Part shown: positions 1 through 16,329 of the stretch, piece after piece
Layout: each line of letters opens with the position of its first letter
How positions within the stretch are numbered: the stretch's first letter is position 1
Source of the DNA: Clitopilus passeckerianus
Lineage: Eukaryota; Basidiomycota; Agaricomycetes; Agaricales; Entolomataceae
Length of the DNA stretch: 64,000 nt
Direction: 5' to 3'
Assembly (NCBI GenBank): GCA_944990035.1
Contig: CALYLX010000127.1
Span: forward strand, 1,215,573 to 1,279,572
The notes under the pieces: generated by a model
The model's input: the letters and a program-made list of their open reading frames with translations, nothing else
Databases searched by the model: none
Told to the model about the DNA's origin: nothing
Translations under genes and position numbers: made by a program

Positions 1-344
1 GTTCAGAATTGTCAAGAAAGTCTTGTAGTCAACTAGCAGAAAGGGTTGATTGGGAGATCTACAGTTGGCACAGACGACTCACCATCCTTGGGTGAAGAAG
101 CAATGATATCGGCAACCTCTGCTTGCGTTGGGTTCTGGCCGAGAGCACGAAGAAGATCTCCCAAAACCTCGCGTTGAACCGAACCGGTTCCTCTCTTGTC
201 GAAGAGAGCAAAAGCCTCTTTGTATTCTGAAAATCGAGTTCAGCACATGGCCTTTCCCGTGTTTTCTCTGAGATCTACCTGCGTTGTCACTCTATCAATA
301 GGTTAGAGAATATATTGAACAAGCTTCAACCAAGTACGCACCAT
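1..344 (-). CDS. MLC1: Myosin essential light chain (Mlc1/Cdc4 type), 5' part
   Basis: EF-hand light chain that binds the IQ motif of myosin and acts in cytokinesis. Four minus-strand exons read in one frame: 344-342 (ATG only), 291-279 (13-nt microexon), 226-83 and 32-1, joined by GT..AG introns. The protein starts MSDNAEYKEAFALFDKRGTG and continues through LGDLLRALGQNPT and DVDYKTFLTILN, the characteristic start of fungal Mlc1/Cdc4. The divergent EF-hand loop (DKRGTG) is typical of light chains that do not bind calcium. The start was chosen because the microexon gives the only phase that joins ATG to the conserved GAA-TAC-AAA reading. The gene runs off the left edge, so the C-terminal half is missing. 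It is divergent from the PAC1-like gene. Family call is strong; exon 1 and 2 boundaries are inferred. Confidence 0.85.
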
Positions 345-463
345 GGTATGTTTCCTAGAGAAGAGGTGATGGTTCCAAGCGCAAGCGATCTTGATTGGGT
401 TGAACTTGTTTACGAACGCTGTCACATCCGAAATCCGAGTTTATCTCTTCCGAGTCGACGAAC
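345..463. promoter_or_regulatory. 119-bp divergent promoter between MLC1 and PAC1-like gene
   Basis: The two start codons (344 on minus, 464 on plus) lie 119 bp apart and point away from each other, so this interval must hold both 5' UTRs and promoter elements. It keeps all its CpG sites. No TATA box is obvious. Positions 364-480, which cover most of this interval plus the PAC1-like start codon and the first bases of its first intron, recur inverted at 9335-9451 with every CpG mutated. Confidence 0.7.
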
Positions 464-1503
464 ATGGTGAGTTCGGTTCACGCTCTTTACCTTCATTCAA
501 CCCTTATAGTCATGGTAGGATGTGGATCCTTTGGCAGATACAGGGCCTCCGCGCTATATCATTGAATCTGACGAGGAAGAAGACGAGTATAATCCTTTGC
601 GTCCCACCGCCGAGGAGGACCACGATGTCAACGTCGAAATAATTGGAGATCTTCCTAAAGGGCATGCTCTGGTTGTAGCAACGGGGGACATATCCAAGTA
701 TTGGTCCCGTAACGCTGATCTTGGCGAGCAAAGGGGAGCAATCTACGTGAATAAAGTACAGGTAAGCTTCACTCATTTCTTGTGGAGCGTTGCACGAATC
801 TATCTAGGTCGGCCTAGTCTTTAGACCCAGATGGACTCAGGCTATAATTGTAGCCTCCGAAATAATGACAAGGCTGCCTGTGTGGGCAATGTTCAAATAT
901 GCAGACACGACGCTTCAGCATCTGGAGCCTACGAGGTATCTAGACCGCGTCATCGTTTCTTCATCTGCTGATCTATCCCCCGTGTACAAGGGTTGTATTG
1001 CTCGATACATACTCAGCCGCAACCTACATATCCGGAGAGAAAGCTGCGCTAAGTGACGCGCCAATGCGTTATCTCTCCAATTCACCCGTCGACGATGCCA
1101 TTGTACGTCTTGCAAACATGAATACCCTTCACTTGATTAACGGAAACACGTCTAGAAAAAGAATGCCAAGCCCTTCTCGCCCCCAAATCTCCTGCAATCC
1201 ACATCAGCCGCATTCTTCTCGTGTCTCGAAACGACGTATAATCGGTCTCCAGGCTTTGCTGTCCTTGTTCCATCATCCCATGCAGCCCATCCTGCTCCGA
1301 AAGTCCTCAATTCGTCAAATGTGCTTGCACTGTCAGAAGACCGTGATGAATGGACAGACGAGGTGGTGAACCTGGCACAAAATTTGACATTCCAGCTAGC
1401 AGAGCAGCCTACCCCCGTAAGATGGGTCAACGCGAAGCGAGGTGAAAGGGTATCTGCACAAAGGAGGCAAGATGAAGTAGGAGAAGGTGGAATGTATATA
1501 TGA
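464..1503 (+). CDS. Proteasome assembly chaperone 1 (PAC1/PSMG1)-like protein
   Basis: PAC1 pairs with PAC2 to scaffold assembly of the 20S alpha ring. Exons inferred: 464-466 (ATG only), 519-761, 841-935, 991-1102 and 1156-1503. All junctions keep frame and use GT..AG. The product begins MDVDPLADTGPPRYIIESD, has an acidic N-terminal stretch (ESDEEEDE), then VVLLDTYSAATYISGEKA and a C-terminal part containing PPNLLQSTSAAFFSCLETT and PGFAVLVPSS. The latter resembles the PSMG1 segment in which a proline-asparagine motif precedes an alanine-rich helix and a hydrophobic strand. The similarity is moderate, so the family call is tentative; the exon structure is better supported. The end at 1503 is the first stop in the last exon; a further small 3' intron near 1420 cannot be excluded. 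It converges with the CSC1-like gene. Confidence 0.5.
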
Positions 1504-1676
1504 GTATGCAAAGTTTGAAACTGCCGAATACCAGAAATACTACGATTTGTTGAACGTGTGGAGGCTGAGGTATGCATAGTAATAAGCTGAAAATATCATA
1601 GGGGTATACAACATCAACGAGGTGTATCAACCGAGGACAGAGAGCACTGAGATATCAAGACCTAATGAAATTGATT

Positions 1677-4600
1677 TCATCGTCCAGGAAATGCGCCCGG
1701 AATAGTGGGCCTTCTCCTTTCGGGATGATGGAAATAGGTACCATAACGAGAGGTTCTCGATGGTGAGTTTGAGACGGCAGCTGTAGGCGACAATCCGTTG
1801 TCGTCAACGGCACTGGCCTCGGTAATCGAGCGTTCTAGGTTCTCCCCTTGCTCCGTCCCATAATCTTCATCGCTGTCTGGTTCGTCCAACCAATCCCCAT
1901 CGTCAGGCAGCATAATCACTCCTGAAGCAACATCGAAGCTTAGGCGATGGTGCAGGCTCCCACTGCCAGACCTCTGATGCCGGGTCGTTACATCCTCCCA
2001 TGGATTGGTGGTGTCTGGATGTTCTTCGAGGGGTGTCGCTCCTGCGTTGGGATCCGAAGGGCCAGCGCGATTGACATCTCGGGACCTCGACCTATGGCTT
2101 CTACTAAAGCGTTTACGTAGGGTCAGAACAACCGTGTCGTTGTCCTGTGCGACCTTGGTGTTTCCGTTTCGGTGATCATGATTGACTAACGTTTGGCCCT
2201 TCTTCAGAGGTAGCCAGGGTTGGGGAAGCACTCCATTCAATGCGGGATGTCCATAACGCCTCTTGCCCGTACTGAAGAAAGATGGTCAGATCGGGAGAAA
2301 GGCAAGAGAGGGTGTACTAACTTCAATACGCCGCTATACCAATTTGCCATAGGAGGTTGAGACTATTGGTATCGGATAAATTGGTATGTATGTATGAGGG
2401 AAGATGTGAGAAACTCACATAATCCGTGCGTTCGTCTTCTGGAGCAGCGTATAAGGTGTCATCATTCTGCGCATAACGGCGTTTATTCAGATTACTGGGG
2501 ACTCAAGAATTAGATTCCATAAATTTACAGCTTTAGATGTACTAACCTCTGTGACCATGTAACTGGATGGCCGGCTCTGAGGCGCAATACCTCTGCCGTA
2601 TCTTCCCCGCGTTCCACCTCAAACACGGAGGATAGACTGACAAATTTGCTGAGAGGTTTGAGTTGCTTATCAACTAAGTAACACCAAGCAACCGTCGCAA
2701 CAAGTAACGGGACGAGTAGAGAGGATAGGATGAAAGACTTCCGGAGGGAGAATATGCCAATCATGAACAAGAGGAATATTATGACGCCCCAGATGAGTCG
2801 AATGAAGGTGATCGGCCAGGCTTGTCCTTGAGACTCGTATGGCTTGTAAAAGACTGTCCAGATTTAGAGCGTTTTCCGGTGTATCGGTGTTGATGTATGG
2901 ACTCACCAAAGAGTAGTTTGTACTTATAAACGACGTATCCGACGCCAAAGTAGACTGCGCCAAATATCACGATGAGTGGTTGCACAACGCTGTAGAGTAG
3001 GGTTATGACGAAGATAAGGATGGCTTGTGGGTATACGACGCCGTAGTTGATCATTGGTGGAGCATTCAGTTCCGCGAAATCTGAAGGTTCTTAGCCCAGC
3101 GCATATCAGAACGAGTAGGGAACGTACCTCTGGGGGTTCGGGTGAGGAACATCCTATAGAAGAGCCTTGGTATAATCACACCAAGGTTGAGCAGTTGTAA
3201 TGGCATGATGCCAAGACCTGACAGGAATGTTAGAGGAGAACCAGTACTCACAAGCTGATAAATACCTTGCAGAATGACGTAGGATAAGAAGAAATGTCTA
3301 GTAAACAACGGCAATTCCGTTCAGGCCCGTGGATTCACTCTCAAAATGTTTGATAGACCCACCTCGCTCGACCAGTTTGTAAAGCAATTGCAAGCTTTTC
3401 TGGAACCTTCGCCGGCGAGTTGGCAAGGTCACGAACCAGTTGCCAATATGTAGTGGCCAAAAGGAAGATGAATACGACGTTGATGAGGAGGAATAGGAAG
3501 TATCTGTAAAGTGAAGTTCGAATGAGAAATATAGCGCCGGAGTTAACAGAGAACTGACTTCTTGAGTAGGGAATACTCTACCCAGCTTCGTGCGCGATAA
3601 CCCTGAACATAGGTAAGAGCTTGATGCATAGTTAGCGGGGGGTGTAGACTGTTTGCGGAATATAATCTCACCCTCAAGGACAAACGGCAGCAAGGCATTC
3701 AGAGTTATCATGGCAACGCTAGGTAGTGAGTTCTGCACAATGGCGCGGATATTCTCATTCTGATCTATCAACTCCCCCAGCCATGGCATCGCTTTCTTGA
3801 TTTCCTTGTAGCTGAGCAGACTGGCCAAGGCCGTGATGGGAGGGATCCAGAGGGTGAAAAGAAGTGCCATTACGCCAAGGACGAAGATTTCGCGAGTGCG
3901 GACATTCATGGAGGAAGGTGACATGTTCGCCCAGACTATGTCTCGAGGCTCTGGGGCAGGATATGTTGTAACTTGTGAAGGGTTTGGTGCATGGGCCACT
4001 TGGACGGCGATTTGCTGCGAAGAACTGTCAAAATCCTTCTATCACGATATTACCAACGAACGTACAGCACTTGACATCTTTTCAAAGGTCACAAATGCAG
4101 CCTGCGTTGCTTTGAACCGCCCAGTCTTCCTGCGTTTTTTCACCAAGTCATCCGCCTTCTTGAATTGCTGCTCTAGATACTCGAGAGCATCGACTTTCGG
4201 TTTATACCATGCTGTTCGTAGCGTTGGCCGTTTCTTATGGGGTATAACCAGTTTGCCCTGCCGCGGTTGCCCCTCCTCAATATCTAAATCCACCAGAGGA
4301 ACCGCAGCGTTCTCCGGGTCATAAGCTTCGACTGTGCTCGGGTTGCCGACGTAGTCAACCCATGCCTTCTCCAAGGCCAAGAGAGCTTCGGTGCGACGGT
4401 CTAGAATGGCCTTTAAGCTTGAAACCTCTCGACAAACGGTGACGCTTTCGACAGCAAGACCCATGTTCTCGAAATATTCGGCGAGGGGCCGTTCGCCTTG
4501 AAGATGATTGGGAAGATTGGTAACGAGAACGGTGCGTGCCGGTATGGAGTGAACGAGTTCGAGAGAGAATAGTTGCCGAGAGCGGATAAAGCGTTTATAG

Positions 4601-5419
4601 TTGTGATAAATGAAGTAGAGTGAGAGGACGGTGAAAAGGTAAGTGAACGTGAGATGGACAGAGAGGTATGAATTCGCATCGCTGATGAGGTCGAGCCAAT
4701 CTTGCCCAGGAATAGTGTGGTTGCCCTTCGGTGGATCAATCATCCTCCGGAGCGACGGCCAGTCATCGTCATCATTGCCTGGCCAATCATCGTCTGCACC
4801 AAGGTCTTTGTTATGCTGAAAGTGCAGCAGTTAGTTGCAATCTGACAGTTTTTTTGTTAAACATTCCTAACCTTCCAGTTGAGAGGCATCAATATTGTGA
4901 CCGCGAACAGAGAGCATACAGAAAACAGGTAGAATGACATCTTGAAGAAGTTCAGTAGCTAAAGGGGACGTCAACCAATAAAATAGTCAATCGACGCATG
5001 GGAATCTTACCACAGCTGCATCTAATCCGACAATTTGGAGGACCGTGAATTCCGAAGTTCTAATTGTAGGCAGTATCCAACCGAAGAAGGCTTGGTGTGC
5101 GTGTGCTTCATGAGGAGAGAACCCTGGAGCATAGTGAGCCTATGATCAAGCAAGTGTACAGATGTATCCACCTTTCAATTTCGTTCTTGGTGCAAACAAC
5201 AGTGGCCATCGTGTCCGGCAGTACGAGAACAGAAAGAACGATATTATTCCTATGCCTGCGGAGATCGTAAGTTGTGTCGTAAACCAGGGTCCTTCAAACT
5301 TGCCTATAAAAAAGAGGTTAGCACCAAGCCAAGTCAGATAGATAAACCTTACGTGTAGGAGGAGACCCTGGCGGTAGAGAACGGTCGTCATCCAGCAGAG
5401 CCTCAAGGAAGGATTCCAT
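1677..5419 (-). CDS. CSC1/OSCA/TMEM63-family (DUF221) membrane channel
   Basis: Predicted hyperosmolality- or stretch-gated cation channel, or a phosphate-metabolism-protein-7-like transporter, in a cell membrane. The minus-strand gene has many introns. Exon 1 starts at 5419 (MESFLEALLDDD) and is followed by an N-terminal membrane segment around 5300-5200 (GIGIISFFLFSYC). The cytosolic RRM-like PHM7 domain lies at about 4740-4040 (RTVLVTNLPNHL; AAFVTFEKM). The DUF221 seven-helix core spans about 4000-2530, opening with ANMSPSSMNVRTREIF and including ELIDQNENIRAIVQNSLP. The tail contains the conserved KRRYGHPAL motif near 2260 and ends in a long polar, serine-rich region with stop at 1677. All expected modules are present in order, so the gene looks complete. 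Individual intron boundaries were not all resolved. It is divergent from the release factor gene, with 135 bp between starts. Confidence 0.88.
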
Positions 5420-5554
5420 GATGGCGACTGTGAACGTTGGTTGGTCTGAGCAGGCCTGTCAATGCCAGGATGAGGCACATTGTTTGTCTAGGTCGTCTGG
5501 CCCAAACAGAATGGCGAAAAGTCGCGACTACTTTCCCCGAATGGTCATGCATTC

Positions 5555-7073
5555 ATGTTTTCAATTTCGCGTTGCATCACTCGTCGTTCCTTCAGTCTAC
5601 GCAAATTAGGTTCTAACCAGCCTGTACGGTACAAACATGCGGAAACTTCGTCAAGAAACAGTAGGATACTGCGAGTCCTAGAACAAAAAGTCGCAGAGAG
5701 GAAGCAACTACAGTCGACTGTGAATAGCATGGCATTTCTCTCACTTGAATCCTCCTAACTAACAGGTGATATGCTAGCTCTCTGAAAATATGTCCTCTCA
5801 GCAGGATATAGCTTCTCTTCGTCATCTCAAGGAAACAGAGCCACTACAATCAGCCTGGGACGATTGGGTGCAGAAACAGCAGGTCTGGAACCATTGAACA
5901 TTCATGCTACCTCTACGCTCACCATAATTGTTGTTAGTAGCTTCTTGAAGACACGAAAGCCCTTTTGTCAGACCCTGACGAGGCTATGCGCACACTTGCC
6001 GTTGAAGAACACGACTCACTGGACAAGTCCCTCACGGAACTTGTCGAGACCACTATACCCTCACTACTCGTTCCGCCATCAACGACTGGGCATTTCTCAG
6101 CCATTCTGGAGCTGAAATCCGGCGTCGGCGGCTCTGAATCAAGCTTGTTTCTGGCAGACCTCCTTCGAATGTATCTGCGTTTCGCGAATACACGGAATTG
6201 GAAGACCACAGTCGTCTCCCAGAATGAACTCGAGACTGGCGGATTCAAAGATGCAATTGTCGAGGTCAGAGGGACGGGAGCTTATGATCTGCTTCGTTGG
6301 GAAAGTGGGGTGCATCGCGTACAGCGCGTACCCGCAACGGAAGCTAGTGGGCGAGTACACACCAGTACGGTGGCTACTATAGTGAGCTCATTATACATGG
6401 AACTCCAGTTATAGAACTAATTGTTTCCTACCTTTAGGTGCTCCCTCTCATGGAGGAATCTGATGCAGAGACTGAGCAACTGTTTACAATGGATGAAGTC
6501 AAGGTCGAAGTCATGAGAGCACGGGGAGCAGGCGGCCAGGTGAGCACCAGTCTATTCTCTGTGTTCTTGGGGCTGAGGATTTGTAAAGCACGTCAATAAA
6601 ACTGAATCCGCGGTTAGGCTTACACACGTACCAACCGGTATCACTGTCTCGATGCAAGATGAACGAAGTCAGCATCAGGTAAGTATCAGAGCACCGTGCA
6701 TTTCTACAGTTACTCATCCTGAAGCAGAATAGACGCAAGGCATTTGTAGTTTTGAGTAGCCGGCTGATGGACATTAAGTTAACTCGTGAAATGGAGGAAC
6801 GGCGGGCGACACGCCAGAACCTAGTGCGTACAGCAGACCGCAGTGAGAAAATTAGGACATATAACTATGCTCAGGTGCGTCTATACAATAATAATCTAAT
6901 TTGTCTGGCTGACAACTGTGAAATGGCAACAGGAAAGAGTGACTGATCACCGCATAGGACTGACTTTAAAGAATCTTACTGCTGTGATGGAAGGGGATGG
7001 TCTTACTGATTTTTTGCATGCCTTGCAAAAAAATCATGATGAAACCATTCTTGAAAATATGCTCCTGAGTTAG
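5555..7073 (+). CDS. MRF1: Mitochondrial peptide chain release factor 1 (mtRF1/Mrf1)
   Basis: Class I release factor that reads UAA/UAG on mitochondrial ribosomes and triggers peptidyl-tRNA hydrolysis. The start [19 protein letters not shown] is rich in Arg and Ser and lacks acids, as expected of a mitochondrial presequence. Successive exons, joined by short GT..AG introns in phase 0, give [29 protein letters not shown], then the PCRF domain ([39 protein letters not shown]). The catalytic GGQ motif (RARGAGGQ) is split by an intron and followed by [18 protein letters not shown]. The C-terminus carries [12 protein letters not shown] and ends NMLLS at 7073. All domains are present in the normal order and length, so the gene appears functional. 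It is the last conserved gene before the transposon-rich part. Confidence 0.93.
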
Positions 7074-8182
7074 CCTTGTTCTAACTCTTATCTATGTCCT
7101 ATTTTGGACTGCTTGCATATTATGGCTCACCTAATAATGATTTGTGTATATACATTAGAATGCAATGAATTCTGAATTCTGAATTGGAATTTCTTGGCAT
7201 CAAACATAGGTATACTATGTGTCTATTTAACCTTCAATAGCATGTTGCCACACTTAGAAAAAGCCTGCCAACAATGCAACCTTTTGTATTGCTCTGCCTT
7301 GAAGTTCCTAAGCAGATCATCAATCTTGCTGACTTAAAGAAGCTGCTGAAAACCTCACAAGAGCTGGTGTCATACCCAGCTGTTCACAGCCAAACACAAG
7401 TTGTTTATTCCAAATGGGGTAAGGTGATTTCCAGCTAATTGCTGATTGCTTACCATTGGTAGTCAGCAAAGTATTCACTGGAAATCAACTGAATTTGATT
7501 TTGCCCTGGGTACTAGTTACTATCTTTTATACACGATGTTTTTTTTTGGATTAGGAAGGATGTAGAATGATAGAATGTAAAAGAATTTTGGGAATTGGTC
7601 AAGTATTTCTTGAGTTAGAAGCACTTTAGTGAAAAATATTCGAATTTATTAATATTTTTTCTGAATTTTTTTCTGGATCAGACACATCATTCTGCATAAC
7701 TTGGGTAAAAATTTCAACCGAATTTAGTGCCCTTCCCTCCCTAAATTTCCTTTTTGGGTAACTCACCAACCAATTGCGGGAAAATTTTCGGACCTTTGTT
7801 TTTTGATCTCCCAGCCATTTTTAAGGCCAAAGACAACATCATGTATAAATTCTGGCACTGCGCACCTCTTGATTCAATGCTGACTGTCAATAAGGTTGTC
7901 TTCACCCCGGACTTCCCTCTTTCTCCACTGGCCCCTCGACTTTCGATCTTCCGAAGATTCACTTCACCTCTAACTTTTGACTCTACCCTCTCTGCTTCCA
8001 ACTTCAACTGACAATTATGACCTACAACTCATTTATCCCTTTGACTATCGACCCTCGACAAGACCGTTCCCACCCCAGATTTCCCTCTAACTTATTGGCC
8101 TCTCGACAATATGATACGACTCAACGCACAATGGACCTTCGCTTGTTATTCGCTTCCTCATTGACTCTTGACTCACCGACAC
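7074..8182. other. Gene-free AT-rich spacer with an imperfect duplicated segment
   Basis: No conserved coding sequence was recognised. The left part (to about 7740) is AT-rich. From about 7890 the plus strand is pyrimidine-biased and holds two imperfect copies of a motif of roughly 38 bp, near 7906 and 8072, both reading TTCCCTCT.. TGGCC.CTCGAC. Reading frames of 80-100 codons here occur on both strands and show no protein family signal. The right end carries GACAC at 8178-8182, one side of the target duplication of the LTR that follows. Confidence 0.5.
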
Positions 8183-8250
8183 TGTTACAGTTATCTTGGA
8201 CACGCACCCGGACTCTTTTTCCTTTTACTTATCGCGAGTATTACTATGAG

Positions 8251-8459
8251 CATCAGGAAAATATATGCCAACTTGACTATACTTGGCTAAAACATAAATT
8301 GCCACACTACTTGATAACTTTTACAAGTATGTATAAGTAAGCTATAAGTGCTATAAATGGCTATAAGTTAGGCTGAAAGTTATGTCTTATTGATGCTCCA
8401 CTTAATGTTTCATTAAGTTCTCACAAGTTGATGTCAAGTTGGCCTATATTTTCCTGATG
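8251..8459 (+). mobile_element. MITE, CATCAG family 1, copy 1 (209 bp)
   Basis: Begins CATCAGGAAAATATA and ends with the near-inverted TATATTTTCCTGATG. Two other copies of exactly 209 bp occur at 15800-16008 and 16121-16329. It interrupts the family A LTR, as shown by comparison with the uninterrupted LTR at 15064-15526. It is non-coding, so it must be mobilised in trans. No clear target duplication is visible in this copy. Confidence 0.85.
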
Positions 8460-8755
8460 CCGCCTCATCCCCCACCCCACTTACGTTTACTTGATTACTT
8501 AGTACTGCTGCGCATTACTCATCCCTTTAGTTACGATTACTCAGTATTCTCAGGATTGTGAGATACTTGTACTATATTTACTTATCATGACTCGTTGTGA
8601 CTCTTACTCTGACTCACTCTGAGTCATACTTACTGTTGCTTACTTACTAGCATTGCTGCGCGATGCTTAACCCTTAGCCCTACCTACCATGTATAAATAC
8701 CTTCACGCTATCGGTCTTGCTTCCTTAGCTTGACCTAAAAGCCTATACATCACTA

Positions 8756-9113
8756 CATCAGGAAAACTGGAAACTACTTATCTGTACTTATCTGTACTTT
8801 TTGTACTTTTTTGAGCAATAAGTAGAAAAAGTAAAAAAAAAACTAAGTCTCCTACTTTTTTTTCTACTTTTTTCAGAAACCCAAAAAGTGAATATGGATT
8901 TCGCAGATAAGTAGGTAAAAAAAGTAGAAAAAGTATGCAGAATACAACATTTTAGAGGCCATAAGTGATAAAAAAGTGTGAAAAGTTAAGAAAAAAGTAG
9001 GAGACATTACTTATTATACTTGTGACAAGTAGGCTAAATGCTCACTTTTTCCACTCAAAAAAGTGGGGAAAAGTAGAAAAAGTATAAATAAGTAGTTTCC
9101 AGTTTTGCTGATG
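8756..9113 (+). mobile_element. MITE, CATCAG family 2 (358 bp), TA target duplication
   Basis: Ends are CATCAGGAAAACTGGAAACT and the inverted AGTTTCCAGTTTTGCTGATG. It is flanked by TA on both sides (8754-8755 and 9114-9115). The uninterrupted LTR at 15064-15526 has a single TA at the same place, so this is a directly demonstrated 2-bp target duplication. The interior is made of A-rich and T-rich runs that can pair with each other and has no coding potential. Confidence 0.85.
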
Positions 9114-9334
9114 TATTTGCTTTAACTTCAACTTGCTCGATTACTCTCGCACGTCTCTACAAAGGCTGGCAGAGGACTAAGCAGCTGAATCTTTGATACT
9201 TAGTTAAGCACGTAGTGATACTAGCTTAACAGACGCTCGCCGACATCGACACTCAGGCAGGCATTGATTACTTCGCAAATATTTTCAAGTAAGCACCAAC
9301 GGTTATTAATTCATTCTCCAAGTACTGCACAAGT

Positions 9335-9451
9335 TGAACTGAACTCACCATGTTTGTCAACTCAGAAGAGATAAACTCAGATTTCAGATGTGACAGTGTT
9401 CATAAACAAGTTCAACCCAATCAAGATTGCTTGTGCTTGGAACCATCACCT
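9335..9451 (-). repeat. Displaced copy of the MLC1/PAC1 promoter with every CpG mutated
   Basis: This 117-bp segment is the inverted copy of positions 364-480. The two align without gaps. They differ at exactly ten positions, and each is a CpG in the original that has become TpG or CpA here (five of each). The remaining 107 positions are identical. The original covers the divergent promoter, the PAC1-like start codon and the start of its first intron. The alignment ends abruptly on both sides. The small reading frame starting at 9350 is a by-product of this copy and not a gene. Confidence 0.9.
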
Positions 9452-9488
9452 ATTTCTGATCCAGAAGTTGGCCAGGCTGGGAAACTGG

Positions 9489-10092
9489 TGTTAAAGTCCG
9501 CGACGGGTCCGCGATGCGGAATGATACGGATGATGTGCGGATAACGCAGACGGGTCGCGTGGGGATGGCAGAAGTCAAACGGTAGAGTTCGACGTAGCGG
9601 AAGGCCTTGGCCTCAGCGTATGTGCTGTGCCCTTCTGAATTCCTCAGTGGCCAACTTCGGATTCAAGATATGCGGAGTAGAGCAGAAGGTAGTGGAGAGA
9701 CTCGGACGAGAAGCAGATAGAACTTAAGTTGATTTCGGAATGCTCTACTACAATGTTGTTACAGAGTTTATATACAAGTAATGAGAAATGAAGAGAACAA
9801 TAGTAACAAGGAATACAATAGTGAAACGTGGAATGTTAACTAATAGAATGGTGGAGGTAGAATGTACCGGACAGGAGTAGGGAATGGTGGAGTGACATCG
9901 GAATGGTGGAACGACAGCGGAATAGTGGAGGTGGAATGAAATGGAGACGAGTGAGAAATGATATCGGTAAAGGAAGGGGTGATGATGTCCGAATGGAGGT
10001 GAAGGCACTTAGAAGAATCTTGAGAAGTTCCTTCCGCGTTCTCCATCGCGGAAGGAATGCGGAATCGTCGGATGATGGTGCGGATTGTAACA
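9489..10092 (-). mobile_element. Solo LTR, family B (604 bp), CpG-rich
   Basis: Bounded by TGTTA at 9489 and TAACA ending at 10092. On the minus strand a TATA-like GTATATAAAC (near 9770 in window coordinates) sits in the expected position, so the LTR reads leftward. Unlike its surroundings it has many CpG sites, for example repeated CCGC/GCGG, which suggests a later insertion that has escaped CpG decay. There is no matching 5-bp duplication: the left flank is the promoter copy region and the right flank is a fragment of LTR family A, so one side was probably rearranged after insertion. Confidence 0.6.
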
Positions 10093-10163
10093 CAAAGGCT
10101 GGTAGAAGACTAAGCAGCTGAACTCTTGATACTTGGTTAGCACGTAGCGATACTAGCTTAACA
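10090..10163 (+). mobile_element. LTR family A, 3' end fragment
   Basis: Matches the last 74 bp of family A (ACAAAGGCTGG through CTAGCTTAACA), as in 9160-9231 and the complement of 15064-15138. It is fused on the left to LTR family B and on the right enters a Tc1-like transposase reading frame directly, which marks it as an insertion or recombination scar. Confidence 0.8.
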
Positions 10164-10636
10164 ACGGAGGAGGAAACATCATGGTATGGGGGTGTATGGG
10201 GTGGAATGGAGTGGGGCAACTTGCAGAGGTTGAGGGCATTATGGACCGCTTCCAATATCAGGACATTTTAGACTAGCAGCTGCTGGTCAGCATGGAGAAT
10301 TTGGACATTCCCGAGGACGAAAGAATTTTCCAGCAGGACAACGACCCCAAGCACACCTCTAATGTGGTCCGGGTGTGGGTGGAAGACAATGATATTGACC
10401 TTCTAGACTGGCCAGCACAGTCTCCTGACCTCAACCCTATAGAACACCTCTGGGACCATATCAAAAGGAAGCTTAATGAATATCCGACTCACGCTAAGGG
10501 GGTTTTTGAAGTTTGGGAGAGAGTTGCAGAGGTATGGGAGAATATACCACCAGAGGTGTGTCAGAACTTAATAGAAAGTATGCCCAGAAGGATAGAAGCA
10601 GTCCTTAAGGCAAAGGGAGGCAATACCAAGTACTAA
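10164..10636 (+). pseudogene. Tc1/mariner-type transposase, C-terminal fragment
   Basis: DDE transposase that would cut and join transposon ends at TA sites. Reading from 10170 gives MVWGCMGWNGVGQL, then after an in-frame TAG near 10270 the catalytic core FQQDNDPKHTS and WPAQSPDLNPIEHLWDHIKR, which are the second Asp and the Pro-Asp-Leu-Asn-Pro-Ile-Glu box of Tc1 transposases. It ends KAKGGNTKY at 10636. The N-terminal DNA-binding half and the first catalytic Asp region are missing, cut off by the LTR fragment on the left. Dead copy. Confidence 0.9.
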
Positions 10637-10876
10637 TGGCTGAATTTTATATATCTAATGTACATAGTCAAATAATTGTCCGGATGTATCTCTGACTTGT
10701 TTCTACTATATCTCAACGGGCTTTGATCCGAATTACGTAGCTTTTATATTTCTTGTAGCAGAGATCAAATACTTTGTTTTATGTACCAACACTATAATTC
10801 AAACTTTAGTATAGCAAAAGTTATTAAGCAAATACCCAAAAAGTGCGAAACATCCGGACAATTGTTTGAGTCACTG
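10637..10876 (+). repeat. Tc1-like 3' non-coding end with terminal inverted motif
   Basis: Downstream of the transposase fragment, AATTGTCCGGATG near 10673 recurs inverted as CATCCGGACAATT near 10852, and the segment closes GTTTGAGTCACTG at 10876, equivalent to a CAGTGACTCAAAC terminus. This fits the end of a Tc1-like element. A related, more decayed arrangement (GTCTGCATG and GTTTGAGTCAC) ends near 13700. Confidence 0.6.
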
Positions 10877-11610
10877 CACTTAGAATAACTTAAGCAGAGC
10901 ATTCTAAGGAATACTAAGTCATTTTGCCTTAGAACATATTTGCCTTAGCCTAGCTCTTAAAATGACTACTAGTATTGTAGGCAAAATACAAGTTATATGA
11001 TCTGCTTATGTAAGTATTGTAGTTGATGTAGATCAAAATTCTGAACTCAATGGTACTACTCCCATCATGATCTGATTGATAGTTAGCCTTGAGCTTGGGT
11101 GCTGGGAGCATCATCAGAGATAGCAGGAATGGAGGGTCTCACGAGCCTCCAGATGAGATTATGAGGAGCAGGTAGGCTACAAGTACATAAGAACTACAAT
11201 AAAATGATCAGGAGATATTACGACATTGTCAATATAGATACTGGTTTTGCATATGCAGGTTAAAATTATGTAAATTATGGAAAGAATTCAAAGAAGAATT
11301 GAAGCAATTGAAATAACTTAAAGGCGTGGGTGGGTGGGTGTTCAAAAATCTCGAATGCTAAATAATATCTGTGTATAATGTTAATTCAAGATGACAGTTA
11401 GTAGCGGAGCTACTTACTGTTGCAATAATACCTAGAGCAGTGCTCTATGGACTGGCGGGGCCAAGTAAGGGTATTACTGTTGATGTGGTGAGTGGGGCTC
11501 GACACATTGTATGGCAATGACTTACCAGCTGGTTTGCTTTTTTTACTGGTAGTGAAAAGAAAGCAGCAAACTGGTGAAAGGCTTCTCATTGCCATGTCTG
11601 TCTCACATCA

Positions 11611-11762
11611 GCCAGCAAAGTGTAGATACATTTCTAAAAGCATTCAATCTCAGCTTCCGGAATATATAAGAATATTAAAACTCCAAACAGAATTGATGGA
11701 AATATAGTGTAAACAAGACAGAACAACATGCAGACAATTATTTGGTCTTGACTCTCATTATG
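11611..11762 (+). repeat. Left arm of a ~150-bp inverted repeat (partner 13481-13622)
   Basis: The complement of this segment matches 13481-13622 with scattered substitutions: both contain AGTCAAGACCAAATAATTGTC, ATCAATTCTGTTTGGAG and TATTCCGGAAGCTGAGATTG. The partner is followed at about 13690 by CAGACAATTGTTTGAGTCAC, which resembles the Tc1-like terminus at 10876. The pair probably represents two decayed Tc1-like ends in opposite orientation, about 1.7 kb apart. Confidence 0.75.
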
Positions 11763-12676
11763 GCTAATCAGTGCTATAGCTTGCCATAAACTATTAGAAA
11801 TTATAATATGACTCAGTTCAATCTCTTAAATAGCTAAAAGCAATAAAATAGAAGTAGTTTAAACAACAGAAATTCTCTCAAAAATGTGTCGAGCAAGCAT
11901 GCCTTCCAGCGAGGGAAGTTGCAGAGCAGCCTACCTTGAGCTAAGTGTAGGGTTGTGAGGTAAAGCAAACTAGGTAATAAGACTAGAGAAGTCTCCAATG
12001 TATTGAGATGAAGTACATAGGTTTATATACATAAGGAGAGCGTGCACAGACCATGTATATGTAAGCATATCTAGAATGTTCTGTGCTAAATATAGTATGG
12101 AAGTGACACGAAATGAGTCATAAGTAGTCATGAAGTGTCACGTGAGTTGCCATGAGGCGTATTCGTAAGAAGGCGTAACAATGATGCGATATGGCACAAT
12201 ACTAGATCATGTGATGTCACGTGATCAGTCATGTGAGTGGTATGCCTCAATTCAACAAAATGTAGTACTCATCTTCCAATGTGATATTTACTTTTTATAA
12301 TATAACTTGCTTTTTTTGAACTTTTTACTGTTATTTCTTTAAGGGCATTTGGTCAGAATTCTTTGTGCTAGGTCATATTACCTGAACAAAACCTTTGGCC
12401 AGTACTTTGAACTATAGAGAAACTTTTTCAAGGCATTCTGCTAAGCTATTTATTTTGATTTATTAATATTCTATCAGATATTGGTATCTGCAGAGCTACT
12501 AATGCTATTTCTGTTCAAGAGCACATTATATCCACTATTCTTAGCCTATTTAGTGTACATTGTACACCTAGATTGTATTAAAAATAGTTGTGTGAAGTAG
12601 TTGTAATGGTGATTATATTCATGGTAAATTTGTGTAATTAGTATAAAGTAATAAAATATTCATTAAAGCTACTTAA

Positions 12677-12909
12677 ATTGGATTTATCAGGATTTGAAGT
12701 ATACCATTAAATCAATAGGCTGTCTCTCCTCGCGCTCCGGTGCCCAAAAAATATATTCTCCGGCCGGTGTTTTGGGTTGCCAGGCCTTCGTGTCGGTGAT
12801 CTGAACACTTGGCCTCTCCTAAACGTTCATTTGCGGCCAAGGATTTAGGTTCATTGGATTGGATTTATCAGGATTTGAAGTATACCATTAAATCAATAGG
12901 CTGTCTCTC
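12677..12909. repeat. 52-bp direct duplication flanking a 129-bp CpG-rich insert
   Basis: Positions 12677-12728 and 12858-12909 are identical (ATTGGATTTATCAGG through GGCTGTCTCTC). Between them lie 129 bp containing about nine CpG sites, in contrast to CpG-poor flanks. The insert is non-coding, has no terminal inverted repeat and no poly(A) tail. The layout looks like an insertion with a very long target duplication, or a patch repair event. I do not recognise the insert. Confidence 0.8.
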
Positions 12910-14513
12910 TAGCTATTCTAGAGCATCTACATGATTGGAAAAAGGATCATTGGATGAAAAATGGGTAATTATAAAGGAGATATTAAAACAAATTTATTTC
13001 AATTCAATCAAAAACTGTATTAGAGACATGAAACAGCTACTAAAGTCAAGTAACCTCTATAGAACCTCATTAGAAGCCTAAGTTCAAGTGAAATATAACA
13101 TTTTCCTATAAATATGACTTGATTTGGGTCATAAATCTGGCTATTTTGAAAAAAGAAAATTTATTTCTGGAAATATAAAAGCCTTACATATACTTCTTAC
13201 AAGAGAAAAAAAAAGCCTAGAGCATTAAGACTATATATTTGGACTATTTTTTGCATATTAGAGGTATTTGACCTATAAAAAAGTCTTGATGCCTCTTGCA
13301 ATCAAGCTTGCTAGCTTTATTTTTATTCTTATAAATCCAACCACATGGAAGGGAATTTTGCAGAAAGATACCTCTAGAGCTATTGTGTATATACTAGTAT
13401 AGTATTTTAAAGACTACCTGTATTAGCATACTAGCTTAAAAAAATATCTGAAGTGTTAAAATGTCTGGTTTCTCTATTTCAAGAGTCAAGACCAAATAAT
13501 TGTCTATATGTTGCTCTATCTTGTTTGCACTATATCTCCATCAATTCTGTTTGGAGTTTTAATATTCTTATATATTCCGGAAGCTGAGATTGAATGCTTT
13601 TAGAAATTTACCTACACTTTGGTGTGGTGTGCACTTGGTCTAGAGTTATTGTACAAATAGTCAAAAAGTGCAAAACATGCAGACAATTGTTTGAGTCACC
13701 GTAGTGCAGAGAAATATCTGTTATGTCCAAAAGTGTTGTGAAAGGTTTCTCATTATATTGCTATTTTTGACTTCTAAATATGCTTCCTTAATGCTTCAGA
13801 TTTATCATTTTCATACCATTTGTCGTAAGGTTTGTCATTTTACAAGCATTCTTTGAAATCATACAAATTATGATCAAATTTGGAATTAGATTTGTATTTT
13901 TAAAGCAAACTTTAGGGCAACAAATCTCAGCTTGCTCTCTGTGTTAGTGTTTCTTATCATAGTTCTAATAAGTTATTCTAAGAGTAGAAATCCAGAAATG
14001 CAATCTGCTGATGCCCTATAGTGTGCACTTGGTGGCCAATTTCCCAGTCTAGCTATCAAACTAGCCAGGTGATTTAGTTGGTCTACAGAATTCAATCAAG
14101 TATTTATTTTAACAGACAGAAACTACCATCTCATTCAGAGCATGTGAAAACCTTGAAAGCCACTTAAACTGCCATTTTACACAGCTTCCTTCAACTACAG
14201 GACAAGAAATGCCACAATGTAACCAACTTCAGAGTCATTAATAGTACTTTCTTTGGAAAGGTGCCCTTGTACTATCAAATTGAAACAAATTCTACTGATT
14301 AAAGTCCACCTGACAGACTTATATATTAATACAAATCACCCAAAATGAAGGTTATTAGGGTCACTTTTGACTAGGCTTCACGGAAATGCAGTAACCACTA
14401 GTACAGATGGAAAAAGCTGTTGAGCAGACAGAGAAGTATAACTACTAAGGTACTTACCTTGAGTGTAGAGACTGGAGGGAGTGCTAGCTAACTAGGAACA
14501 AGTGGTAAAACTC

Positions 14514-14704
14514 TTGTAGTACAGTAAGCAACAAAAGTGTTCCAAGATTTGCTACTTTTCTAAAAATACTTTAATAGCTCAGGAAATAAAATTGATAAAG
14601 CCATCAAAATATTATCCAATATAGTTTAAAATCATGGCTTGAGGATAGCATAAGCATGGGGCTGTGCAATGAAGTTTGATGGATGGTATAAGCAAAACAA
14701 AACA
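14514..14704 (+). repeat. Left arm of a ~190-bp inverted repeat (partner 16985-17178)
   Basis: The complement closely matches 16985-17178: both read CTGTTTTGTTTTGCTTATA.CATCCATCAAACTTCAT, then the GCTTGAGG/CCTCAAGC segment and the TTTTAGAAAAGTAGCAAA segment. Divergence is largely at TpG/CpA positions. The pair encloses about 2.3 kb that has itself been filled by a Tc1-like fragment, an LTR and several MITEs, so it could be the ends of an older large element or an inverted duplication. Confidence 0.75.
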
Positions 14705-14759
14705 GTTACTCATTAGAATAGTTTTGTAACAGAGTAATTATATAGTAAGAATACATCTA

Positions 14760-15063
14760 GTTCAGTACTTAGTCCAGGCTTCCTTGGCCTTAGCTACTGC
14801 CTAAATTCTCCTAGGCATAGATTCAATCAAATTCTGATACACTTTCTTACTAGGTATCTTATCAATGTTGGCAGATGTGAGCATGGCTGGCTGGCCACCA
14901 GAAGACTTATCAAGGTCTAGAAAATGTTGATTACAAATTCTAAAGATAGAAGCAAGGCCAATACTAGTGTTTCTGTTGATCTAGTAGACAGAGGCACTGG
15001 ATTGAAGCAGTTCAAAGACGCAGATAATTTGAGCCTTGGTGAGAGACTTCATAGCAGAGTCAG
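14760..15063 (-). pseudogene. Tc1-like transposase, N-terminal fragment
   Basis: On the minus strand from 15063 leftwards the frame reads SAMKSLTKAQIICVFELLQSS, then after a stop INRNTSIGLASIFRICNQH and GGQPAMLTSANIDK. This is the paired helix-turn-helix start of Tc1-like transposases, followed by the linker before the catalytic domain. At least one stop codon is present. The LTR at 15064-15526 is inserted at its 5' end. It is not the missing half of the fragment at 10164-10636, which lies on the other strand. Confidence 0.6.
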
Positions 15064-15590: not shown

Positions 15591-16045
15591 CATTAGCATT
15601 CTGTTGTATTGCTTAAAAATGCTTTAATGTGCTTGAAATGCTCTTGAAGAGCTTTAGGACTGTTTAAGACTGTTTAAGTAAATTAAGATGATTAAGAGAA
15701 CAGGTTTTTTCTCTGTTCTTTCTATTTTTAATCATCTTAATTTGCTTAAACAGTCTTAAACAGTCCTAAAGCTCTTCAAGAGCATTTCAAGCACATTAAC
15801 CTCAGGAAAATATAGGCCAACTTGACATCAACTTGTGAGAACTTAATGAAACATCAAGTGGAGCATCAATAAGACATAACTTTCAGCCTAACTTATAGCT
15901 ATTTATAGCACTTATAGCTTACTTATACATACTTGTAAAAGTTATCAAGTAGTGTGGCAATTTATGTTTTAGCCAAGTATAGTCAAGTTGGCATATATTT
16001 TCCTGATGTCAAAGCATTCTTAAGCAACACGACAGAATGCTGATG
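15591..16045 (+). mobile_element. Hairpin-type MITE, CATCAG family 6, with nested family 1 copy
   Basis: Left end CATTAGCATTCTGTTG and right end CGACAGAATGCTGATG are inverted, with the left CATCAG degraded to CATTAG. The arms are unusually long: ATTAAGATGATTAA-type sequence pairs almost perfectly across 15613-15798, so the transcript would fold into a hairpin with a short loop around 15700-15725. The family 1 MITE at 15800-16008 sits in the right arm. Without it the element is about 246 bp. Non-coding. Confidence 0.75.
15800..16008 (-). mobile_element. MITE, CATCAG family 1, copy 2 (209 bp), nested
   Basis: Same 209-bp element as 8251-8459, in the opposite orientation; the first bases read CCTCAGG in place of CATCAGG. 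It is inserted in the right arm of the hairpin MITE, so family 1 was still moving after family 6 had inserted here. Confidence 0.85.
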
Positions 16046-16120: not shown

Positions 16121-16329
16121 CATCAGGAAAATATATGCCAACTTGACTATACTTGGCTAAAACATAAATTGCCACACTACTTGATAACTTTTACAAGTAT
16201 GTATAAGTAAGCTATAAGTGCTATAAATAGCTATAAGTTAGGCTGAAAGTTATGTCTTATTGATGCTCCACTTGATGTTTCATTAAGTTCTCACAAGTTG
16301 ATGTCAAGTTGGCCTATATTTTCCTGATG
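16121..16329 (+). mobile_element. MITE, CATCAG family 1, copy 3 (209 bp), AT flanks
   Basis: Third copy of the 209-bp element, CATCAGGAAAATATA to TATATTTTCCTGATG, flanked by AT on the left (16119-16120) and AT on the right (16330-16331). That is consistent with the 2-bp duplication seen for family 2. It differs from copy 1 at only a few positions. Confidence 0.85.

Follow-up and report, generated by a model that had tools for sequence, protein, structure and literature searches.

A 117-bp segment lying between two predicted, divergent genes of Clitopilus passeckerianus has a second copy in the neighboring repeats, and this copy has lost every one of its ten CpGs while matching its source at every other base. 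We propose, at a probability of a little under one half (about 0.48), that the copy was methylated at its CpGs and underwent rapid 5-methylcytosine-to-thymine mutation, in a process that was RIP- or MIP-like in effect and confined to the duplicate. Both segments are located in the stretch of 64,000 nucleotides that was analysed here (the window), where the features of first concern are as follows.

9335..9451, minus strand: the copy, identical to its source save for ten CpGs, which are now TpG or CpA
364..480, plus strand: the source segment, with 10 CpGs, which takes in 100 bp of the 119-bp interval separating two predicted divergent start codons
75..344, minus strand: 5' part of a calmodulin-like EF-hand gene, with a predicted start codon at 344-342 and an exon read at 75-227
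464..761, plus strand: 5' part of a gene of unknown family, with a predicted start codon at 464-466 and a predicted exon at 519-761

The reverse complement of 9335-9451 aligned to 364-480 without gaps over 117 columns with 10 differences, one for each CpG of the source, such that 10 of 10 CpGs were changed and the copy has none. Five had become TpG and five CpA, and all of the changes were transitions (5 C>T and 5 G>A) that affected both strands. None of the 97 bases outside CpGs differed, and of the 36 non-CpG cytosines on the two strands (15 C without a following G and 21 G without a preceding C) none was changed. These results reproduced exactly the gapless 117-bp alignment, with loss of all ten CpGs and none of the 97 other bases, that had been claimed in the initial annotation, and its description of the change as CpG-specific was borne out, as only CpGs were altered and on both strands. 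RNA editing or the action of a single-strand deaminase was ruled out by the even split of the changes, 5 and 5, between the strands. BLAST extended the match to 361-480 and 9335-9454 with 11 mismatches; owing to a mismatch at base 363, just beyond the 117 bp, the homology can be delimited only to within a few bases. The probability that 10 random differences would all fall on the 20 CpG bases is 2e-9; it is 3.5e-4 at the CpG share found in repeat pairs with <1% other divergence (196 of 434 differences) and 7e-7 at the share found between alleles (333 of 1,367 differences).

The source segment further includes one of the two predicted start codons and reaches 14 bp into a predicted intron. The gene structures around 364-480 represent our reading of start codons and splice signals, i.e., they are predicted, and a Pfam match was not found for the exon at 519-761. 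Calling the segment a promoter is fair but predicted from these signals, and the earlier claim of a gene promoter as the source agrees with its position in the predicted promoter between the two divergent genes.

Searching the 64.8-Mb assembly of 160 contigs with this segment identified three matches: the source, the copy and positions 994138-994257 of a contig referred to here as C98. C98 is the other haplotype of the contig that carries the window (C126), as the two are collinear over 36,876 alignment columns with 95.9% identity, ending at window position 7217. The C98 allele of 364-480 has 3 extra bases and retains 9 of the 10 CpGs, the tenth having been lost by a C-to-G difference. Because both haplotypes have the CpG-rich version, the CpG-free state is derived, which bears out the claim that 364-480 is the original; the reverse direction, in which CpGs were gained in the gene, is ruled out by the nine CpGs of the C98 allele. 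At both allele differences, the C-to-G site and the 3 extra bases, the copy sides with the window's haplotype. This agreement alone gives no date for the copy, as it may be C98 that has changed at these places. The search for further copies of the segment, which had been suggested as a check, found none in the assembly beyond the C98 allele. Beyond window position 7217 the haplotypes differ in the arrangement of their repeats, including LTRs, LINEs and a PIF1-helicase element. Because the repeat layouts of C126 and C98 differ, window positions 7218-64000, which run to the contig end, constitute a haplotype-variable repeat block. The best named protein hits from the analysed DNA were to Blastosporella zonata (73%) and Crassisporium (74%), which makes membership of the Agaricales likely.

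Two LTRs, referred to here as LTR1 (on the left) and LTR2 (on the right), flank the 257 bp that contain the copy, in the following arrangement.

8178..8182: left half of the probable LTR1 target-site duplication, GACAC
8183..9231, plus strand: LTR1, a solo LTR from a family of high copy number, with nested inserts at 8234-8466 and 8756-9113
9232..9236: right half of the probable LTR1 target-site duplication, GACGC
9232..9334: adjoining left flank of the copy, 103 bp, with 6 CpGs kept and itself as its sole match in the assembly
9452..9488: stretch between the copy and LTR2, 37 bp, with no CpG and too short to weigh
9489..10092: LTR2, a lower-copy solo LTR with 38 CpGs, young, with 3 private non-CpG changes in 577 sites
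10093..10163, plus strand: end piece of another LTR1 copy, directly right of LTR2

The LTR1 family has at least 81 matches, as counted from 40 of 204 candidates. The two halves of its probable target-site duplication here differ by one CpG transition. An element of ~208 bp occurs within LTR1 and nearby, at 8251-8459, 15802-16008 and 16121-16329, with 99% identity and no shared CpG. LTR2 is flanked by the inside of an LTR1 copy on its right (10093-10163) and by other DNA on its left (9452-9488). No matching target-site duplication was found around LTR2, and the arrangement suggests that its left end was shaped by recombination or deletion. Capture of the gene fragment by a transposon, which had been raised as a possibility, found no support: LTR1's own probable target-site duplication leaves the copy outside that element, no target-site duplication was apparent by eye at the copy's own ends, and no further copy was found in the assembly.

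The CpG o/e of the copy is 0 and its TpG/CpA o/e is 1.81, with corresponding values of 1.27 and 1.01 for the 103 bp on its left. Elsewhere nearby the CpG o/e is 1.05 in the 291 bp left of LTR1, 1.30 in LTR2 and 0.79 in the LTR1 pieces; the nested inserts in LTR1 are poor in CpG, with values of 0.52 to 0.63 in 500-bp windows, and the repeats to the right have values of 0.43 (10164-10880) and 0.25 (10881-15000). The copy is a CpG hole with CpG-normal immediate neighbors, set within a wider region that shows CpG decay. The loss is confined to the duplicated stretch, with the left flank keeping its 6 CpGs and the right side consisting of 37 bp without a CpG followed by LTR2. The transposon setting described in the initial annotation was correct for the wider region, which is CpG-decayed, but not for the left flank or for LTR2, which have kept all or most of their CpGs. 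The wider area was likely methylated too, because CpGs are scarce both in the nested inserts of LTR1 and in the element that follows 10164.

The neighboring LTRs gave an indication of the age of the copy. Against 13 family-majority CpGs, the LTR1 pieces at 8467-8755 and 9114-9231 have 6 private CpG losses, so that about half of the family CpGs are lost, and private changes of other kinds number 13 in 402 sites (3.2%). LTR2 has 2 private CpG losses, and its 3 other private changes correspond to 0.5% of sites. At the age of LTR1, the copy should have acquired ~3 non-CpG changes in its 97 sites (with a probability of ~0.04 of there being none) and have lost about half of its CpGs. The copy is likely younger than LTR1 yet fully stripped. 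This contrast, which draws on a small number of sites and of family copies (6, 7 and 4), is the best evidence for the speed of the process.

Ordinary decay in this genome is CpG-biased, not CpG-only, the rate of change at CpGs in alleles and LTR copies being 5 to 23 times that at other sites. Between alleles, 15.7% of CpGs and 3.2% of other sites differ (a ratio of 5.3), and seven comparisons in the LTR2 family gave CpG:other ratios of 7 to 23, of which the three with at least 77% of CpGs lost had 9 to 16% other changes as well. In repeat pairs with <1% other divergence, 196 of 3,148 CpGs differ (6.2%). By profile likelihood, the copy would need a CpG:other ratio of ~200 or more, or ~74 or more if the edge mismatch is counted, which on its ten sites exceeds the 5 to 23 range of this genome. 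The best likelihood of 10/10 CpG changes with 0/97 others is 2e-5 at a ratio of 16, 6e-4 at 30 and 5e-3 at 50. CpG loss in the copy was faster than the local mutation spectrum predicts, in line with the fast process that had been claimed for it.

To place the copy among other aligned sequences, a sliding window of 117 columns was applied to 420 aligned pairs in 284 kb, with windows of at least 8 CpGs considered; these are not independent trials because windows overlap and pairs share members. No repeat window (of 25,350) and no allele window (of 3,192) had at least 90% of its CpGs changed with at most 2 other differences. Five repeat windows combined at least 8 CpG changes with no more than 2 other differences; in the best of those listed, 8 of 12 CpGs were changed. 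In addition, two of 419 repeat pairs had at least 5 CpG transitions that accounted for 70% or more of all substitutions, and both were the copy versus one of its two source alleles.

No second gene-fragment copy in repeats was identified with 23,573 bp of gene DNA as the query (window positions 1-7000 and stretches of 9573 bp and 7000 bp), which returned, besides self and allele matches, one partial copy, namely 9335-9451. CpG-free, TpG/CpA-rich stretches in CpG-normal DNA numbered six on C98 and one on C126, the latter being the copy itself. Three of the six C98 stretches are copies of one repeat and another, C98:991338, aligns to its C126 allele. C98:901169-901277 and C98:877734-877838 have one other assembly match each, on contig C105, which we read as the probable other haplotype. 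None of the six is a second case. The latter two stretches illustrate that CpG-free holes in CpG-normal DNA exist without a close duplicate.

The chemistry of the changes, which are on both strands, at CpG only and at every CpG once, points to probable CpG methylation followed by C-to-T change. We propose that the fragment may have been copied in during templated repair of a break, its source lying 8.9 kb away on this contig, and that the inserted copy would then have been methylated at its CpGs. The putative trigger is its being a duplicate, and the gene-side source would have either escaped mutation or been kept by selection. Duplication is proposed as the trigger because it is the simplest feature separating the copy from its flank. 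It is no reliable trigger alone, because other duplicates have retained their CpGs: a LINE pair in the window with 99.4% identity over 1,501 bp has 88 shared CpGs and 3 CpG transitions, and few CpGs are missing from LTR2, which shares 97% identity with another copy. With regard to enzymes, the genome has nine PF00145 stretches, of which three were looked at, and two of these are DNMT5-like and DNMT1-like coding stretches. The DNMT5-like stretch matched chain 7r76, named DNA repair protein Rad8 and which we take to be fungal DNMT5, with an E value of 1.5e-119. The available portion of PMC13297926 describes DNMT5 and DNMT1 as the CpG methyltransferases of basidiomycetes. Against rapid mutation of a methylated duplicate are the length of the copy, which at 117 bp falls short of the minimum for RIP in Neurospora, the unmutated state of the source, the existence of CpG-free holes that lack a close duplicate, the absence of a second case in the 23,573 bp of gene DNA used as the query, and the fact that this is a single case of ten sites that was selected as striking. 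A stronger form of the proposal, in which the fungus senses duplicates as short as 117 bp and quickly erases every CpG of the extra copy with all else untouched, as a CpG-only RIP without RID and below the known RIP length limit, we consider unlikely.

The main rival is ordinary slow deamination of methylated CpGs in silenced repeats, with the copy at the extreme of the range and noticed because it is extreme, and we regard this as a serious possibility. It draws on the CpG depletion of repeat DNA (such as 10881-15000), on the generality of CpG-biased decay in both the alleles and the LTR2 family, and on LTR1 beside the copy, whose half-lost CpGs fit slow decay; moreover, a rare tail is expected because the finding was picked by a reader seeking oddities. 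However, the likelihood of the observed pattern under slow decay is low even at a ratio of 50, those LTR2 copies that have lost at least 77% of their CpGs carry many other changes as well, and the 103 bp on the left of the copy show no CpG loss. That sharp contrast with the flank could be accounted for without any trigger if the promoter version that served as template had itself lost its CpGs beforehand and is now gone or outside the assembly, and the present flanks would then be uninformative. We find this improbable, as no such version was found in the assembly and a CpG-only process would still be required, plus an extra step.

An RNA trigger in place of DNA pairing would have small RNAs from the 5' end of the gene guiding CpG methylation to the matching copy, followed by decay. 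This would limit the effect to the copied stretch, which does contain a predicted gene 5' end, but the source gene should then be affected too, and we give the idea little credence. Some base callers misread modified bases, and a sequencing or assembly artefact at methylated CpGs was considered for that reason; because a single strand shows both types of change, 5 C>T and 5 G>A, and thousands of repeat CpGs in the sample were read as CpG, it is very improbable.

RIP as usually described mutates both copies and requires RID. Our preferred reading, rapid mutation of a methylated duplicate, shares with RIP in Neurospora crassa the C-to-T change in a duplicate, bounded by the duplicated stretch; there, according to the accessible part of PMC4858203, RIP is triggered from 155 bp and its C-to-T changes are bounded by shared homology. 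The differences are several. The homology is at present 117 to 120 bp, below that 155-bp minimum; 0 of 36 non-CpG cytosines were changed, unlike the CpA preference of Neurospora RIP given in the available text of PMC12543289; the source is unmutated, with 10 CpGs (9 in the C98 allele); and other repeats, such as the LINE pair, were spared. The RIP-like mechanism put forward in the initial annotation is upheld with respect to CpG C-to-T change in a duplicate but not as strict RIP, since the window's other repeats keep their CpGs. The same portion of PMC12543289, a survey of 1,239 fungal genomes, concludes that a preference for CpA is common to RIP-like defences, which were active in few clades, and the accessible text of PMC5073141 states that basidiomycetes have no RID/Masc1-type methyltransferase.

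The copy is also like the product of 5-methylcytosine deamination, in that CpG became TpG or CpA on either strand, and differs from it in that CpG decay in this genome brings other substitutions, of which the copy has none. Freedman and Pukkila reportedly described de novo methylation of repeats in Coprinus cinereus in 1993. Low-level, MIP-like de novo methylation of repeats in that species, which has no known Masc1 or RID homolog, is described in the available part of PMC5073141; it likewise concerns duplicates in a gilled mushroom and differs in that mutation is not described in that part. In Ganoderma sinense, the accessible sections of PMC4457147 report CpG-preferring, RIP-like C-to-T change in transposons, nearly all of the affected ones being methylated, and those of PMC4014442 report CpG-biased RIP-like change between nuclei of Rhizoctonia solani AG8. 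Common to both and to the copy is CpG-preferring C-to-T change in duplicated DNA, which in the copy extends to 10 of 10 CpGs. In the portions of those papers available, however, the Ganoderma (transposons of at least 400 bp) and Rhizoctonia (SNPs between nuclei) patterns are statistical biases, whereas here a single 117-bp gene-derived duplicate is altered at every CpG and nowhere else. In searches of an open-access library, no title or abstract opening pointed to a basidiomycete in which a short copy of a gene fragment had lost its CpGs and nothing else. CpG-biased RIP-like change is already known; the present case stands apart as short, gene-derived, complete and clean, with a trigger that is inferred.

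In the available portions of the literature on basidiomycete repeats, CpG bias is reported and the choice between active homology-triggered mutation and passive CpG decay is left undecided. The copy described here is a good natural test case, being a short gene-derived duplicate whose source lies unmutated on the same contig, with the second allele sequenced and LTRs of different age on its two sides. Recurrence of the pattern in other short gene duplicates would mean that mushrooms quickly mark and mutate regulatory DNA that has been newly duplicated, which would limit evolution by duplication.
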